Of a DNA stretch of 38,713 bases, positions 12,530-23,313 are shown piece by piece. Below the pieces are notes generated by a model that did no database searches, was not told where the DNA came from, and saw only the letters and a list, made by a program, of their open reading frames with translations. Numbering within the stretch: the stretch's first letter is position 1; every line of letters begins with the position of its first letter. Origin of the DNA: Candidatus Magasanikiibacteriota bacterium. GTDB taxonomy: Bacteria; Patescibacteriota; Patescibacteriia; Magasanikbacterales; 2-02-FULL-50-9b. The stretch covers positions 1 to 38,713 of the forward strand of contig CALRDW010000008.1 in assembly GCA_943355025.1 (NCBI GenBank), in the 5' to 3' direction. The position numbers were made by a program, and so were the translations under genes.

Positions 12530-13390
12530 ATGCGAACAGACATTCTACCAATTCTTATTTGTATCTCGTGTAAAAATTCTCTCGAACAAAAGGATGGCGG
12601 TGCAGTTTGTGTTGGTTGCGGAAAAAAATTTGTGATTAATTCCGATGGAGCCATAATCCTCCAAGCTGCAGCCCCCGAGGAATTTTCGGGCACGATCGGC
12701 GATCCGCTTGTGTACAAACTTAAAACAATCTTCAAAAAATACGAGGGTTTATATTTTATTTTAGTTCGTATTGCTGGAGCCTTGTTTGTTGGCGAAGAAA
12801 CTGGCAAAACAGCTTTCATGCACTTACCAAATGAATCCATTATTATTAATCTTGGGTCTGGGCCAAAAATTATTAGCGAGCGTGTAATTAACGTCGACTG
12901 CTTTCCGTTTAAAGGTGTGTCTGTTGTTAATGATGCGGCCATGATCCCGTTTAAAGACGGGAGCGTCGATGCTGTCATTTGCGAATGTCTTCTCGAACAC
13001 GTTACGGAGCCAAACGCTGTGGTCGCGGAAATTGAACGGATTTTAAAAAAGGGCGGCCTTGTTTACATCAGCATTCCGTTCATGGATGCGTATCACTCAG
13101 CGCCGGATGATTACTATCGATGGACAACGTCAGGCCTGCGCCATATGCTGCGAGGCTTCAAAGAACACAAGCTTCGTATTGGGTGGGGGCCAACATCGAC
13201 CTTTGTTTCCGCTACTGCACACTGGCTCGGCATGATTCTTAGCTTTGGAAACAAAACGCTTTACCAGCTCGGCATGCTCTTTTTTTCCGTCATCCTCTCT
13301 CCACTCAAACTTCTCGACTACGGCCTCAAGCATTATAAATTCGCCACAAACGCTTCAGTAGGCTATTATTTCATTGGTGAGAAAAAATAA
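12530..13390 (+). CDS. SAM-dependent methyltransferase with N-terminal zinc ribbon
   Basis: A 286-residue protein. Residues 8-35 form a Trm112-like zinc ribbon (CISC and CVGC). The methyltransferase domain follows: IIINLGSGPK is the SAM loop, VINVD the acidic strand end, and DGSVDAVICECLLEHV with the GGLVYISIPF strand are typical of class I methyltransferase type 11. The open frame runs 33 codons further upstream into the transketolase gene, but the ATG at 12530, 17 bases after that gene, gives the expected N-terminus. It likely methylates a sugar or lipid-linked intermediate of the cluster. Confidence 0.83.
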   Translation: MRTDILPILICISCKNSLEQKDGGAVCVGCGKKFVINSDGAIILQAAAPEEFSGTIGDPLVYKLKTIFKKYEGLYFILVRIAGALFVGEETGKTAFMHLPNESIIINLGSGPKIISERVINVDCFPFKGVSVVNDAAMIPFKDGSVDAVICECLLEHVTEPNAVVAEIERILKKGGLVYISIPFMDAYHSAPDDYYRWTTSGLRHMLRGFKEHKLRIGWGPTSTFVSATAHWLGMILSFGNKTLYQLGMLFFSVILSPLKLLDYGLKHYKFATNASVGYYFIGEKK

Positions 13391-18664: not shown

Positions 18665-19837
18665 ATGTATTCACCACTACACCGCCTCGGCCGAATCGCG
18701 CTCGCGGTCCTATTCACCGCAGGTCTATTCATAACCCCGGTTGCAGCGTTTGCCGCTCCCATTACTCCAACACCAACATCAGCGCTTGCGCAAGTAGCAA
18801 AAACCGCAACAGTGCCTGATGAATACATGCGTGCGGAAGTAACTTCGATTGTTTCAGAAACCCCGTCCCCAACTGATCCGTCAAAAATTCTTCAGATTGT
18901 AACAGTGCATATTCAGTCTGGAAAAGATGCAGGTAAAACAGAAACGATCCATTACGATCTCGGCGCTTCGGAGGCAAAAATTCCGATGCTCCACTCCGGT
19001 GAATCAGTTGTTGTGATCAAAATTCAAGATCCAGACGGCGTTGCATATTATGTAAGTGACATCAATCGTATTCCAGCGCTGCTTGCTTTCGTTGGACTAT
19101 TCCTGTTGCTTGCAATTGTGATCGGACGCGGCCGAGGTATGAGCTCGGTTGTCGGTCTTGGCGCTTCAATTGCAATTCTTGTGTTTGCTGTCGTGCCTGC
19201 GATTGTCCATGGTAATGATCCCCGATTAGTAATTTTGCTCGCATCACCCTTTATCATTGGCATTTCAATGTTTCTCGCGCATGGCTTTTCTCGGCAAACC
19301 GGCCTTGCGGTCATAAGTACGGTTCTAACTCTCATACTAGCGGCGCTCCTCGCGGGCGCAAGCGTGAGTATTGCTAATTTGTATGGTGGCGGAAACGAAG
19401 AGGCGCTGTACGTAAATTCGCTTCTGCCTGGCGGCATCGATTTACAAGGAATTTTACTTGTCGGCATTATCATTGGTGCAATCGGTGTACTTAATGATAT
19501 AACAACTGCTCAAACTGCAACGGCGCACGAAATCAAAGAGGCAAAGCCCGAAATCAAATTCGCTGAATTGTTTACACGCAGTATGCGCGTTGGCCGCGAA
19601 CATATCGCATCCCTTGTTAATACTCTCGTCCTTGCATATGCAGGTGTTGCATTTCCTCTCTTTCTGCTGCTCTACATCACGCACGGCGAACAACCCTTGT
19701 GGACTGTTATAAGTAGTCAACAAATTTCCGAGGAAATCGTCCGAACGTTTGTTGGCAGCTGCGCACTCATTCTCTCAGTACCAATCAGTTCTGCTCTTGC
19801 AACATGGTTTTATACTCGTAATCGACACAATACTTAA
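18665..19837 (+). CDS. YibE/F family membrane protein
   Basis: A 390-residue protein with an N-terminal signal-like segment (residues 10-31, ending AAFAAP), an extracytoplasmic beta-rich domain of about 100 residues, and seven or so membrane helices from residue 137 on. The helices hold the YibE/F signatures: IGRGRGMSSVVGLG, the GGIDLQGILLVGIIIGAIGVLND motif region and the TAQTATAHEI loop. The family is conserved but its function is unknown. Its stop is four bases before malic enzyme, so the two may be co-transcribed. Confidence 0.85.
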   Translation: MYSPLHRLGRIALAVLFTAGLFITPVAAFAAPITPTPTSALAQVAKTATVPDEYMRAEVTSIVSETPSPTDPSKILQIVTVHIQSGKDAGKTETIHYDLGASEAKIPMLHSGESVVVIKIQDPDGVAYYVSDINRIPALLAFVGLFLLLAIVIGRGRGMSSVVGLGASIAILVFAVVPAIVHGNDPRLVILLASPFIIGISMFLAHGFSRQTGLAVISTVLTLILAALLAGASVSIANLYGGGNEEALYVNSLLPGGIDLQGILLVGIIIGAIGVLNDITTAQTATAHEIKEAKPEIKFAELFTRSMRVGREHIASLVNTLVLAYAGVAFPLFLLLYITHGEQPLWTVISSQQISEEIVRTFVGSCALILSVPISSALATWFYTRNRHNT

Positions 19838-19841
19838 ACGT

Positions 19842-21008
19842 ATGCCGACTCTGTCTGAGGAATCGCTTGAATTGCACAGACGCACGCATGGTAAACTCGA
19901 AATTGTTTCGCGCGTCCCACTTGAAAACACCCACGACATGTCGCTTGCCTACACACCAGGTGTTGCTGAAGTGTGTCGCGTTATTGCTGCGCATCCCGAC
20001 ACGACTGCTCAGTACACGCTCAAGGGCAACACCATCGCAATTATTTCCGACGGCTCAGCTGTACTCGGCCTTGGAAACATCGGTGCTCTCGGCGCTATTC
20101 CTGTTATGGAGGGCAAGGCTATACTTTTTAAACGATTTGCGGATCTCGACGCCTTTCCAATTTGTCTCGCAACACAAAACACCGAAGAGATCATTCAGGC
20201 CGTCAAAGCAATCGCCCCAGTTTTCGGTGGCATAAATTTAGAGGATATTGCAGCGCCGCGCTGCTTTGAAATAGAAAAACGCCTGATTGAAGAGCTCGAT
20301 ATTCCAGTTATGCATGATGACCAACATGGCACAGCCGTCGTTGTGCTTGCAGGACTCATCAATGCGCTCCGTGTTGCCGAAAAATCTGTCGAGACAGTTC
20401 GTGTTGTGATCAGCGGTGCTGGTGCAGCAGGAACCGCCATTGCAGAGCTCCTGATTACATACGGTTTTAAAAAAATTGTTGTCTGCGACAGCCATGGTGC
20501 AATTTACACTGGTCGAGATAATCTCAATTCTCCCAAACAGGCGCTCGCACGTATAACAAATCCAGGATGCGTGACGGGTGAAGCAGCGCTCGACTGTATT
20601 ACTGGCGGCCTCGCAGACGCACTCGTCGGCGCTGATGTTTTTATCGGTGTAAGTATTGCGGGCGCACTCACTGGCGCGATGATTTCACGCATGGCACAGC
20701 GCCCAATTATTTTCGCAATGGCAAATCCTCTGCCTGAGATTATGCCAGACGAAGCGCGTGCCGCAGGTGCTTTTATTATTGCAACTGGCCGCTCTGATTT
20801 TCCAAATCAAATTAACAATGTTCTTGCGTTTCCTGGTATTTTTCGAGGCGCACTTGATAATCATGTACGAAAAATAACAGAGATAATGCTCGTAAATGCC
20901 GCTAAAAATCTCGCTGCATGTGTTTTAGATCCACACCCAGAATTAATTATTCCACCAGCGTTTGATCCATCGGTAGCTCCTGCGGTTGCACGAGCAATTT
21001 CCGCTTAA
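19842..21008 (+). CDS. NAD(P)-dependent malic enzyme
   Basis: A 388-residue malic enzyme of the short bacterial type, converting malate to pyruvate and CO2 with reduction of NAD(P). The malate-binding YTPGVAEVC segment, SDGSAVLGLGNIGALGA, PVMEGKAILFK and the metal-site DIPVMHDDQHGTAVV are intact. GAGAAGTAIAELL is the dinucleotide loop. An open frame extends 31 codons upstream, but the ATG at 19842, 4 bases after the YibE/F gene, starts the conserved protein. It is full length for enzymes lacking the phosphotransacetylase extension. Confidence 0.93.
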   Translation: MPTLSEESLELHRRTHGKLEIVSRVPLENTHDMSLAYTPGVAEVCRVIAAHPDTTAQYTLKGNTIAIISDGSAVLGLGNIGALGAIPVMEGKAILFKRFADLDAFPICLATQNTEEIIQAVKAIAPVFGGINLEDIAAPRCFEIEKRLIEELDIPVMHDDQHGTAVVVLAGLINALRVAEKSVETVRVVISGAGAAGTAIAELLITYGFKKIVVCDSHGAIYTGRDNLNSPKQALARITNPGCVTGEAALDCITGGLADALVGADVFIGVSIAGALTGAMISRMAQRPIIFAMANPLPEIMPDEARAAGAFIIATGRSDFPNQINNVLAFPGIFRGALDNHVRKITEIMLVNAAKNLAACVLDPHPELIIPPAFDPSVAPAVARAISA

Positions 21009-21040
21009 ACAAAGGAGATTTGCCTGTGGATAACTACCAC

Positions 21041-21069
21041 TTGACGCAATGTTTGAACTCGCGTAGAAT
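21041..21069 (+). promoter_or_regulatory. Strong promoter in front of a gene-free region
   Basis: TTGACG (21041-21046), exactly 17 bases, then TAGAAT (21064-21069). Five of six bases match the consensus in each box. Transcription should begin near 21076. Confidence 0.7.
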
Positions 21070-21075
21070 TGTTCT

Positions 21076-21625
21076 CAGTCGCCTAGAAAGTTGAACAGCA
21101 CACCCGGGACATCGGGCAACCGAAGTCAATCAGCAGGGTTTTGGGTAACAACTCAGAATCAAATTCCGAAAGGAGCGCAGATAGTGTGTAACTAGACAAG
21201 AAAAGCAGAGAGTGAGAACCGCAAGGAACAAGCTTGATAGCAAATCGAATGGCACAACGATAGGCTCGTGAAAACCAGCAAGGATGAAACTCCAAAAGTG
21301 GAAGACACGTTACAAAGCAATCACTTCTGTGGTGGCTAAGTAGAAAGACCAATTGGTCTGCCTGTATACTTTCGGCCTGAAAGCAGAAAGGTGTAACAAC
21401 CTAATGCTCAAGGAATCTCTCCGCAATGAAGTGCGCGGAGCCAAAAACGAAGCACCGTAAGGAGCCTCGTGATCTGGAAGCAGAAAAACGAAAGGAATTC
21501 TCAAAATTCTAAGGCAAATATGAATGTGGTGTATCAATCGCAAACAAAAAAGCCAAAGAACACAGGCCCGGAAACTCAGAAAACGCGCGCAAGCACGTCT
21601 ATGAGTTTCCGGGCCATTTAATTTT
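21076..21625 (+). ncRNA. Candidate long structured non-coding RNA, unidentified
   Basis: This 550-base unit has a near-consensus promoter and a 14-bp hairpin at its end but no plus-strand open frame beyond about 20 codons. It is visibly purine-rich. CC-GNAA-GG occurs three times (21166, 21219, 21455), the shape of GNRA tetraloops on short stems, and AAGGA recurs about six times. Local hairpins include AGACC-AATT-GGTCT near 21346 and a CTCCGC/GCGGAG stem near 21419-21440. I checked by eye for the conserved parts of RNase P RNA, tmRNA, SRP RNA, 6S RNA and group I/II introns and did not find them. Two tiny frames (19 codons at 21274, 18 codons at 21403) exist but lack convincing support. The open minus-strand frames here look like by-products of purine bias. 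Confidence 0.5.
21565..21625. terminator. Terminator between the RNA unit and gltX
   Basis: A 14-bp perfect stem (21565-21578 with 21602-21615) encloses a smaller ACG-GC stem with a GCAA-like loop. ATTTAATTTT follows on the plus strand. It can close the candidate RNA and, from the other side, gltX, whose stop is at 21637; the T-tract on the minus side is more distant. Confidence 0.7.
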
Positions 21626-21636
21626 AAAACGATTTT

Positions 21637-23313
21637 CTATTTTAGAAATGCACGTGCTTGAGCGACGCGTGCTTGAATGCGCCTCTCCCCCATAACCTGT
21701 AACATCTCAAACAGATCAGGTGTCTGCGCACGCTTCGTCAGTGCACGACGAATAACCATAGCGACATCACCAAAGTGGCCGCGATATGTTCCTGGTGGCG
21801 CAGCTTTGAACTGTTTAGTGTCCGCTGCAAAACCATGCTCTACGCCAAGCGACTTCATCTCTGCAAGCCAGTCATCCGCCGAAGCCTTAGGATTATATGC
21901 TAAAAGAAACGCTTCCAGCAGTTCCGCAGCAGCAGCCCGCCCAACAGATTCAGGAACATCAAATCCTTCTGTAGGTAACAAATCAAATACTTCGTCAAAA
22001 AAATATCCAACTGAACCGTCTAGCTCTGACCATGCAGCAATATCCTTTCGCTTTTTATCTCCACCACGTTCAATGCCAAAAATTGCGAGTGCATATTCTG
22101 CGTTCTTAGAAATAAGTCGTGCGAATTTTGCGTCATACTCTTCTGCCCATGCAAGCACACGCGCAAAAACCTCATCGGCGTTCATGCGCGAAATAACATT
22201 TTTACTAATGTCGAGCAGTTTCGTCATGTCAAATAAAGCACCACTCACATTTATTTTTTCGAGCTTCAATACAAATTCATTCATCGGTGCTGCTGGGTGT
22301 TCACGGCGCCAATCCTCAAAACTTGAGTTCGCCAAATTCATCAAATATTCGATAACCGCTTCTTTCGGAATCCCCTGCTCTGCATAAAACTCTACATTCG
22401 CCTCAGGGTCTTTGCGCTTACTTAATTTACGTTTCGTTCCGCCATCGAGTTTCATAATCAATGAAACATGGCAATAAATTGGCGCTTTCCAATTCATAAG
22501 TTCAAACAGCTCGATGTGCAGCGGTGCGGACGGCAACCATTCTTCGCCACGAATCACATGCGTTGTTTTCATCAAATAATCATCAACAACATGTGCCCAG
22601 TGATACGTTGGATAGCCGTCTGACTTAAATAAAATGGCGTCCTGATCATTTGCTGTAAGTGTCAATCCGCCCTTTACAGCGTCCTTAAATGAAAATTTCT
22701 GCCCTTCAACGCCACGCGATCGAACACGAATAACTGGCTTTTCCCCCTTTGCAAGACGCTCTGCAACTTCCTCGACTGTTATATCTCGATGTCGTGCCCA
22801 CACGCCGTAATATCCAGTTTTAATTTTCTGTAGTTCCTGCGTTGCTCGAACACTATCTAATTCCTCTGGCGTACAAAAACAAGGGTATGCTCCTCCCCGC
22901 ACAACAAGCTCTTTTATAAAAACTTTATATAGTTCGCGGCGGTGACTCTGCACATATGGACCATATACACCGCGCTCGCCCGAACCATCTGCTGTAATCC
23001 CCTCGTCGCTATCTAATCCAAATTTATGGAGCCCCTCCGCAATAAGCGCAATTCCATTCTCAACTTCTCGCTCTTTATCTGTGTCCTCAACGCGTAAAAT
23101 AAAAACACCCTTCGTTTGGTCTGCAATCTTTTTTGAAATGAGGGCTGTATATAGTGAGCCGAGGTGCACGAAACCTGTTGGACTTGGCGCATATCGAGTT
23201 ACGCATGCGCCGACCGGCAAATTTCGTGCAGGGTAGTGCGCCAAAATAGCCTCAGGCGATTCTGTAACATCAGGAAATAATAACTCTGCAATTGTCTGTA
23301 AATCTGTGGACAT
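21637..23313 (-). CDS. gltX: Glutamate--tRNA ligase
   Basis: A 558-residue class I aminoacyl-tRNA synthetase that charges tRNA-Glu. RYAPSPTGFVHLGSLYTAL holds the HIGH-like signature (His50-Leu-Gly), LRVEDTDKEREV follows, and KRKLSKRKD is the KMSKS loop. The C-terminal anticodon-binding part has normal length. Compared with typical enzymes that start at the RYAPSPTG strand, there is an extra N-terminal stretch of about 36 residues. The ATG is supported by a TAGTAT -10 ending 9 bases upstream. Whether it is discriminating or also charges tRNA-Gln cannot be told here. Confidence 0.95.
   Translation of the reverse strand: MSTDLQTIAELLFPDVTESPEAILAHYPARNLPVGACVTRYAPSPTGFVHLGSLYTALISKKIADQTKGVFILRVEDTDKEREVENGIALIAEGLHKFGLDSDEGITADGSGERGVYGPYVQSHRRELYKVFIKELVVRGGAYPCFCTPEELDSVRATQELQKIKTGYYGVWARHRDITVEEVAERLAKGEKPVIRVRSRGVEGQKFSFKDAVKGGLTLTANDQDAILFKSDGYPTYHWAHVVDDYLMKTTHVIRGEEWLPSAPLHIELFELMNWKAPIYCHVSLIMKLDGGTKRKLSKRKDPEANVEFYAEQGIPKEAVIEYLMNLANSSFEDWRREHPAAPMNEFVLKLEKINVSGALFDMTKLLDISKNVISRMNADEVFARVLAWAEEYDAKFARLISKNAEYALAIFGIERGGDKKRKDIAAWSELDGSVGYFFDEVFDLLPTEGFDVPESVGRAAAAELLEAFLLAYNPKASADDWLAEMKSLGVEHGFAADTKQFKAAPPGTYRGHFGDVAMVIRRALTKRAQTPDLFEMLQVMGERRIQARVAQARAFLK

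Follow-up and report, generated by a model that had tools for sequence, protein, structure and literature searches.

A candidate gene for a large structured RNA between malic enzyme and gltX in a Magasanikbacteria genome

In one Magasanikbacteria (Patescibacteria) genome the genes for malic enzyme and glutamyl-tRNA synthetase (gltX) converge on a spacer of 628 bp, which raises the question of what this spacer encodes. It lies within the window, by which we mean the whole stretch of 38,713 nucleotides analysed here; it corresponds to C8, one of the 33 contigs that make up the 0.99-Mb genome. The gltX proteins nearest to the one encoded here are those of Candidatus Magasanikbacteria, which places the host in the Patescibacteria (CPR). 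A first-pass annotation, made from the letters of the sequence, had proposed about 550 purine-rich nucleotides at 21041-21625 with a promoter, tetraloop-like motifs and a closing hairpin, and had read them as a large structured RNA not matching common classes. Fold statistics, tetraloop statistics and a null result with Rfam support this proposal: the spacer likely holds an autonomous non-coding gene, with promoter and terminator, whose product would be a large structured RNA of ~550 nt, and this unit is probably a lineage-specific RNA gene without known relative. To our knowledge, only a handful of bacterial RNAs of such size and complexity are known and their roles are mostly open.

Features and boundaries of the locus

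The neighbouring genes and the predicted elements of the unit are as follows:

19749-21008, + strand: malic enzyme gene, upstream neighbour (ORF with Pfam PF00390 and PF03949)
21041-21069, + strand: sigma-70-like promoter TTGACG-N17-TAGAAT (consensus scan, 10/12)
21076-21625, + strand: candidate structured RNA of about 540-550 nt (fold z, no Rfam match)
21108-21127, + strand: predicted hairpin GAC-A-UCGG-GCAA-CCGA-A-GUC with GNRA loop (pair probability 0.97)
21137-21160, + strand: predicted 10-bp hairpin GGUUUUGGGU / ACUCAGAAUC (pair probability 0.97)
21165-21174, + strand: CC-GAAA-GG tetraloop hairpin, which also holds the longest stretch complementary to the 16S tail (GAAAGGAG)
21219-21226, + strand: CC-GCAA-GG tetraloop hairpin
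21346-21359, + strand: predicted hairpin AGACC-AAUU-GGUCU, a perfect 14-nt palindrome (pair probability 0.99)
21369-21494, + strand: predicted multibranch domain, closing helix CUUUCG/CGAAAG round four arms (pair probabilities 0.62-0.99)
21565-21615, + strand: closing hairpin with inner GCAA-capped stem, then AUUUAAUUUU (inverted repeat 100%, pair probability 1.00)
21637-23313, - strand: gltX, glutamyl-tRNA synthetase, convergent neighbour (Pfam PF00749)

The ends of the candidate RNA are defined by the promoter (5') and by the closing hairpin (3'): transcription would start near 21076 from the unit's own sigma-70 promoter and end at the hairpin at 21565-21615. The promoter is present where it had been annotated, and by itself it is weak evidence, because the window has 14 promoter-like sites at 5/6 or better per box on both strands. 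TTGACA boxes can also be read in the sequence upstream of this genome's genes for RNase P RNA and tmRNA. The arms of the closing hairpin (21565-21578/21602-21615) form 14 bp with 100% complementarity, just before the gltX stop, and the annotation was right in calling it; the hairpin's loop exceeds 8, which is why a simple terminator scan passed over it. Both sides of the hairpin have U-rich flanks (the tail on the - strand is TGTGTTCTTTGGCTTTTTTG), and it is likely a bidirectional terminator that would end transcription of gltX, arriving from the opposite side, as well. The loop of the hairpin (21586-21598, CGCGCAAGCACGT) and the 3' end of gltX (21652-21664) are 92% complementary.

The purine content of the candidate RNA is 61%, near the window maximum and in agreement with the purine-rich stretch first described; sampling elsewhere in the genome gave a few stretches with 62-63%.

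Stability of the fold and clustering of tetraloops

Over 21076-21625, closing hairpin included, the fold z is -5.06. Since the closing hairpin by itself could produce a low z, it was removed before refolding; z was then -3.25 for the + strand, compared with -1.64 for the - strand. The yardsticks, RNase P RNA and tmRNA from the genome under study, have fold z of -3.24 and -3.78, respectively, while 38 control stretches of the window average -0.12 +/- 1.04 with a minimum of -2.43. The unit (z -3.25 versus these controls) is thus more stably folded than shuffled sequence, a property of large ornate RNAs, as far as can be judged from one sequence, in which selection on structure and chance are not separable with certainty. 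The signal comes chiefly from the 3' half (z -2.74); the 5' 255 nt by themselves fold only a little better than shuffles (z -1.20).

The three annotated CC-GNAA-GG motifs are all there: CCGNAAGG occurs at 21166, 21219 and 21455 with an expectation of 0.05, and none of 2000 dinucleotide shuffles reaches three. The last of these (CC-GUAA-GG, 21455-21462) caps one arm of the multibranch domain. GNRA loops closed by two or more pairs are likewise in excess (8 observed, 2.5 expected, 4/2000 shuffles reach 8). We also searched 834 kb of strand sequence, consisting of stretches of the same genome (about 378 kb taken), for three copies of CCGNAAGG within 550 nt and found them only at the candidate locus, in RNase P RNA (L010) and in the 23S rRNA gene (L144). 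The RNase P, tmRNA and 16S loci had been added to this sample deliberately; the 23S rRNA gene was included by chance and identified by Rfam. The rarity of such clusters in this sample is the strongest single argument for a structured RNA. A second pair of CCGNAAGG, at L142:13340, was discarded, as it belongs to a tRNA plus a Nudix-like gene.

The palindrome AGACCAATTGGTCT is matched in length by a palindrome in 1 of 100 shuffles, and its hairpin (21346-21359) could in principle pair between two molecules, so that the RNA might dimerise. Two other properties are at chance level: unpaired A is as frequent as in shuffles, hence no evidence for structure, and internal direct repeats besides the tetraloops are equalled by 72/200 shuffles.

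Known RNA families and related genomes

A search of 20900-21800 with all 4227 Rfam models, the check that had been suggested with the first description, returned no family at gathering score; at E <= 10 there were four matches to eukaryotic families, all at chance level. RNase P RNA and tmRNA, the cores of which the first-pass annotation had not found, are indeed not at this locus, and both have their genome copies elsewhere. The likeness to RNase P RNA class A (RF00010) is in statistics: the copy of the same genome has an equal fold z and also three CCGNAAGG hairpins within 550 nt, but it lies at C33:267-729 and is recognised with 116 bits, whereas the candidate has no RF00010 match. Thus, loci that are Rfam-negative and have no homologues can show statistics as strong as RNase P RNA. 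tmRNA (RF00023; C16:11071-11472) is comparable in its fold z and as a stable structured RNA with its own promoter, but neither tRNA-like ends nor a tag were found at the candidate locus.

Group I introns (RF00028) are present in the 23S rRNA of this genome and share the GNRA-rich folding. Unlike them, the candidate has no RF00028 match at E <= 10, lies outside genes and has its own promoter and terminator. The group I matches in the 23S gene served as positive control (E 2e-5 and 2e-7): as these divergent introns were recognised, a group I intron at the candidate locus would probably have been detected. The 23S rRNA gene itself measures about 4.0 kb, compared to 2.9 kb of the model (L144:10379-14374; C3:50379-54374), and contains, in addition to the two intron-like matches (12858-13050 and 13683-13980 of L144, below gathering score), an open frame of 184 aa that includes a LAGLIDADG-like segment.

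The large bacterial RNAs ROOL, GOLLD and OLE resemble the candidate in being stand-alone RNAs with a complex predicted fold including a multibranch domain, and in their size class (ROOL env-120 has 659 nt and many GOLLD RNAs have over 800 nt; PMC12286853). They are reported to assemble through A-minor contacts and through kissing loops that are palindromic, with GGCC in the case of OLE (PMC12286853); the candidate has GNRA loops, the AAUU palindrome hairpin and a GGCC stretch. However, the usual setting of ROOL and GOLLD is a prophage or the vicinity of a tRNA island (PMC12286853), whereas the candidate lies in neither. The ROOL, GOLLD and OLE models of Rfam gave no match at E <= 10 over 20900-21800, and no other Rfam model matches the candidate above chance level.

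Conservation in relatives, which the first-pass annotation had named as a touchstone, was not found. In 5/5 genomes of the same family (one sister genus) the malic enzyme gene likewise converges with gltX, but only -11 to +4 bp separate the two stops: the unit is absent from the syntenic site. Because the neighbours abut in all five, the 628-bp unit was either inserted in the candidate's lineage or lost from the sister genus, and is a discrete insertion or deletion and not a long UTR of the whole group. The 24 more distant gltX loci have no malic enzyme neighbour and do not polarise gain versus loss. BLASTN with the RNA showed that it is single copy in its own genome and yielded only noise (weak matches, mostly of 16-40 nt) in 57 relatives and in genome sets of the order (86), the class (381) and the phylum (380); an unrelated stretch, used as negative control, likewise gives scattered matches (E 6e-4 to 0.5), and the RNase P RNA of the genome, as positive control, finds 5/5 same-family genomes with E 1e-38 to 1e-105. 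A covariance model (R1) built from the single sequence of the multibranch domain (21369-21494) and run with strict filters over the order and class genomes identified only itself plus weak matches with E 0.05-0.45 (in G042, G017, G271 and L087); the one in G042 was dismissed as it falls within a coding frame.

No homologue was found in phages and plasmids either, and eight exact patterns, searched in viral contigs, hit 41 contigs with no extended similarity. Matches to the second and sixth pattern were rejected, being mostly in open frames, and the rest are short. At L125:11115-11140, between genes of a viral contig, 26 nt match the first tetraloop hairpin at 92%; this is not a homologue, since the similarity does not extend and the would-be RNA runs through a 395-aa ORF.

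Possible functions and competing explanations

In the predicted fold of the transcript, tetraloop-capped hairpins occupy the 5' region and are joined by the four-arm multibranch domain at 21369-21494, and its GNRA loops, at least five of them, together with A-rich joints suggest A-minor packing in three dimensions. Where a single RNA has many GNRA loops, these usually make helix-packing contacts, as in RNase P, rRNA and introns. Given this packing role, and the A-minor and kissing-loop assembly of OLE, ROOL and GOLLD, the likeliest single function, if the RNA is real, would be that of a scaffold for proteins or of a self-associating RNA in the manner of these families; we put this forward as a tentative suggestion by analogy. 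A structural RNA is most likely, more so than a base-pairing regulator. The more specific view, that the unit founds a new class of large RNAs of one Magasanikbacteria lineage, unrelated to Rfam families, with a GNRA/A-minor fold and possible self-association by the AAUU palindrome, is a serious possibility that falls somewhat short of an even chance. If true, large RNAs would be seen to arise or move by lineage (one lineage has the RNA and its sisters do not, at an otherwise identical site), and a reduced Patescibacteria genome would provide a gene small and defined enough for expression and imaging. In genomes of about 1 Mb one would not expect a 550-nt RNA gene that is dispensable.

Among the competing explanations, a decayed insertion, namely a mobile element or intron that degenerated after landing between the convergent genes, with promoter and fold arising by chance, would account for the empty site in all five same-family genomes and for the lack of any homologue that keeps the unit elsewhere, and the genome does have self-splicing introns, judged by the two group I-like matches in its 23S gene. 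We nevertheless consider it unlikely, as no Rfam intron model matches the locus at E <= 10 where the 23S introns score 2e-5 and 2e-7, the statistics of fold and tetraloops equal those of working RNAs, and the unit is single copy by BLASTN with no transposon-like terminal inverted repeats found. Still less probable is a base-pairing or cis-acting regulator of gltX or malic enzyme (a long 3' UTR, an antisense RNA or a terminator element). The unit does run towards gltX and meets its 3' end, its closing hairpin probably terminates gltX and the hairpin's loop is complementary to the gltX tail; but this complementarity covers merely 13 nt, the relatives run both genes without any spacer, and a regulator would need no promoter of its own and would leave most of the 550 nt superfluous.

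A protein-coding stretch or pseudogene mistaken for RNA is the least probable explanation. The statement that no open frame exceeds about 20 codons was too strong: ORFs on the + strand of the unit reach 50, 35 and 34 aa, and two TTG ORFs, of 89 and 77 aa, lie on the - strand, the 89-aa one being the coding candidate. However, the 89-aa ORF has no Pfam match, PADLOC matched none of the 89-, 77- and 50-aa ORFs and the DNA has no homologue in the viral, plasmid and genome sets. The antisense frames are probably open because TTA, CTA and TCA are scarce on the purine-rich + strand, and the fold favours the + strand too. A ribosome-directed RNA, with AAGGA binding the anti-Shine-Dalgarno end of 16S rRNA, as the first-pass annotation had imagined, and thereby favouring translation of leaderless mRNAs, is hardly more probable. 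Six AAGGA are present as counted, a number reached by 8/2000 dinucleotide shuffles; the 16S end (CACCUCCUUUC) is an intact anti-Shine-Dalgarno tail, and the 8-nt GAAAGGAG at 21168 is complementary to it. But this 8-nt complement is inside a hairpin, half of the six AAGGA (three) make up the 3' strand of a CCGNAAGG hairpin each, so that the excess is partly a by-product of the tetraloops, and the predicted accessibility of the six sites is middling (mean unpaired probability 0.37-0.60), which makes the binding idea weak. The premise of leaderless mRNAs is fair: a Shine-Dalgarno-like motif occurs within 20 nt of the start in only one of 25 window genes (135-37379). For a ribosome-directed RNA this scarcity cuts both ways, as few Shine-Dalgarno mRNAs also mean little to compete with. 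Several starts in the window lie ~10 nt after a -10-like TATACT or TATAGG, which is consistent with leaderless mRNAs.
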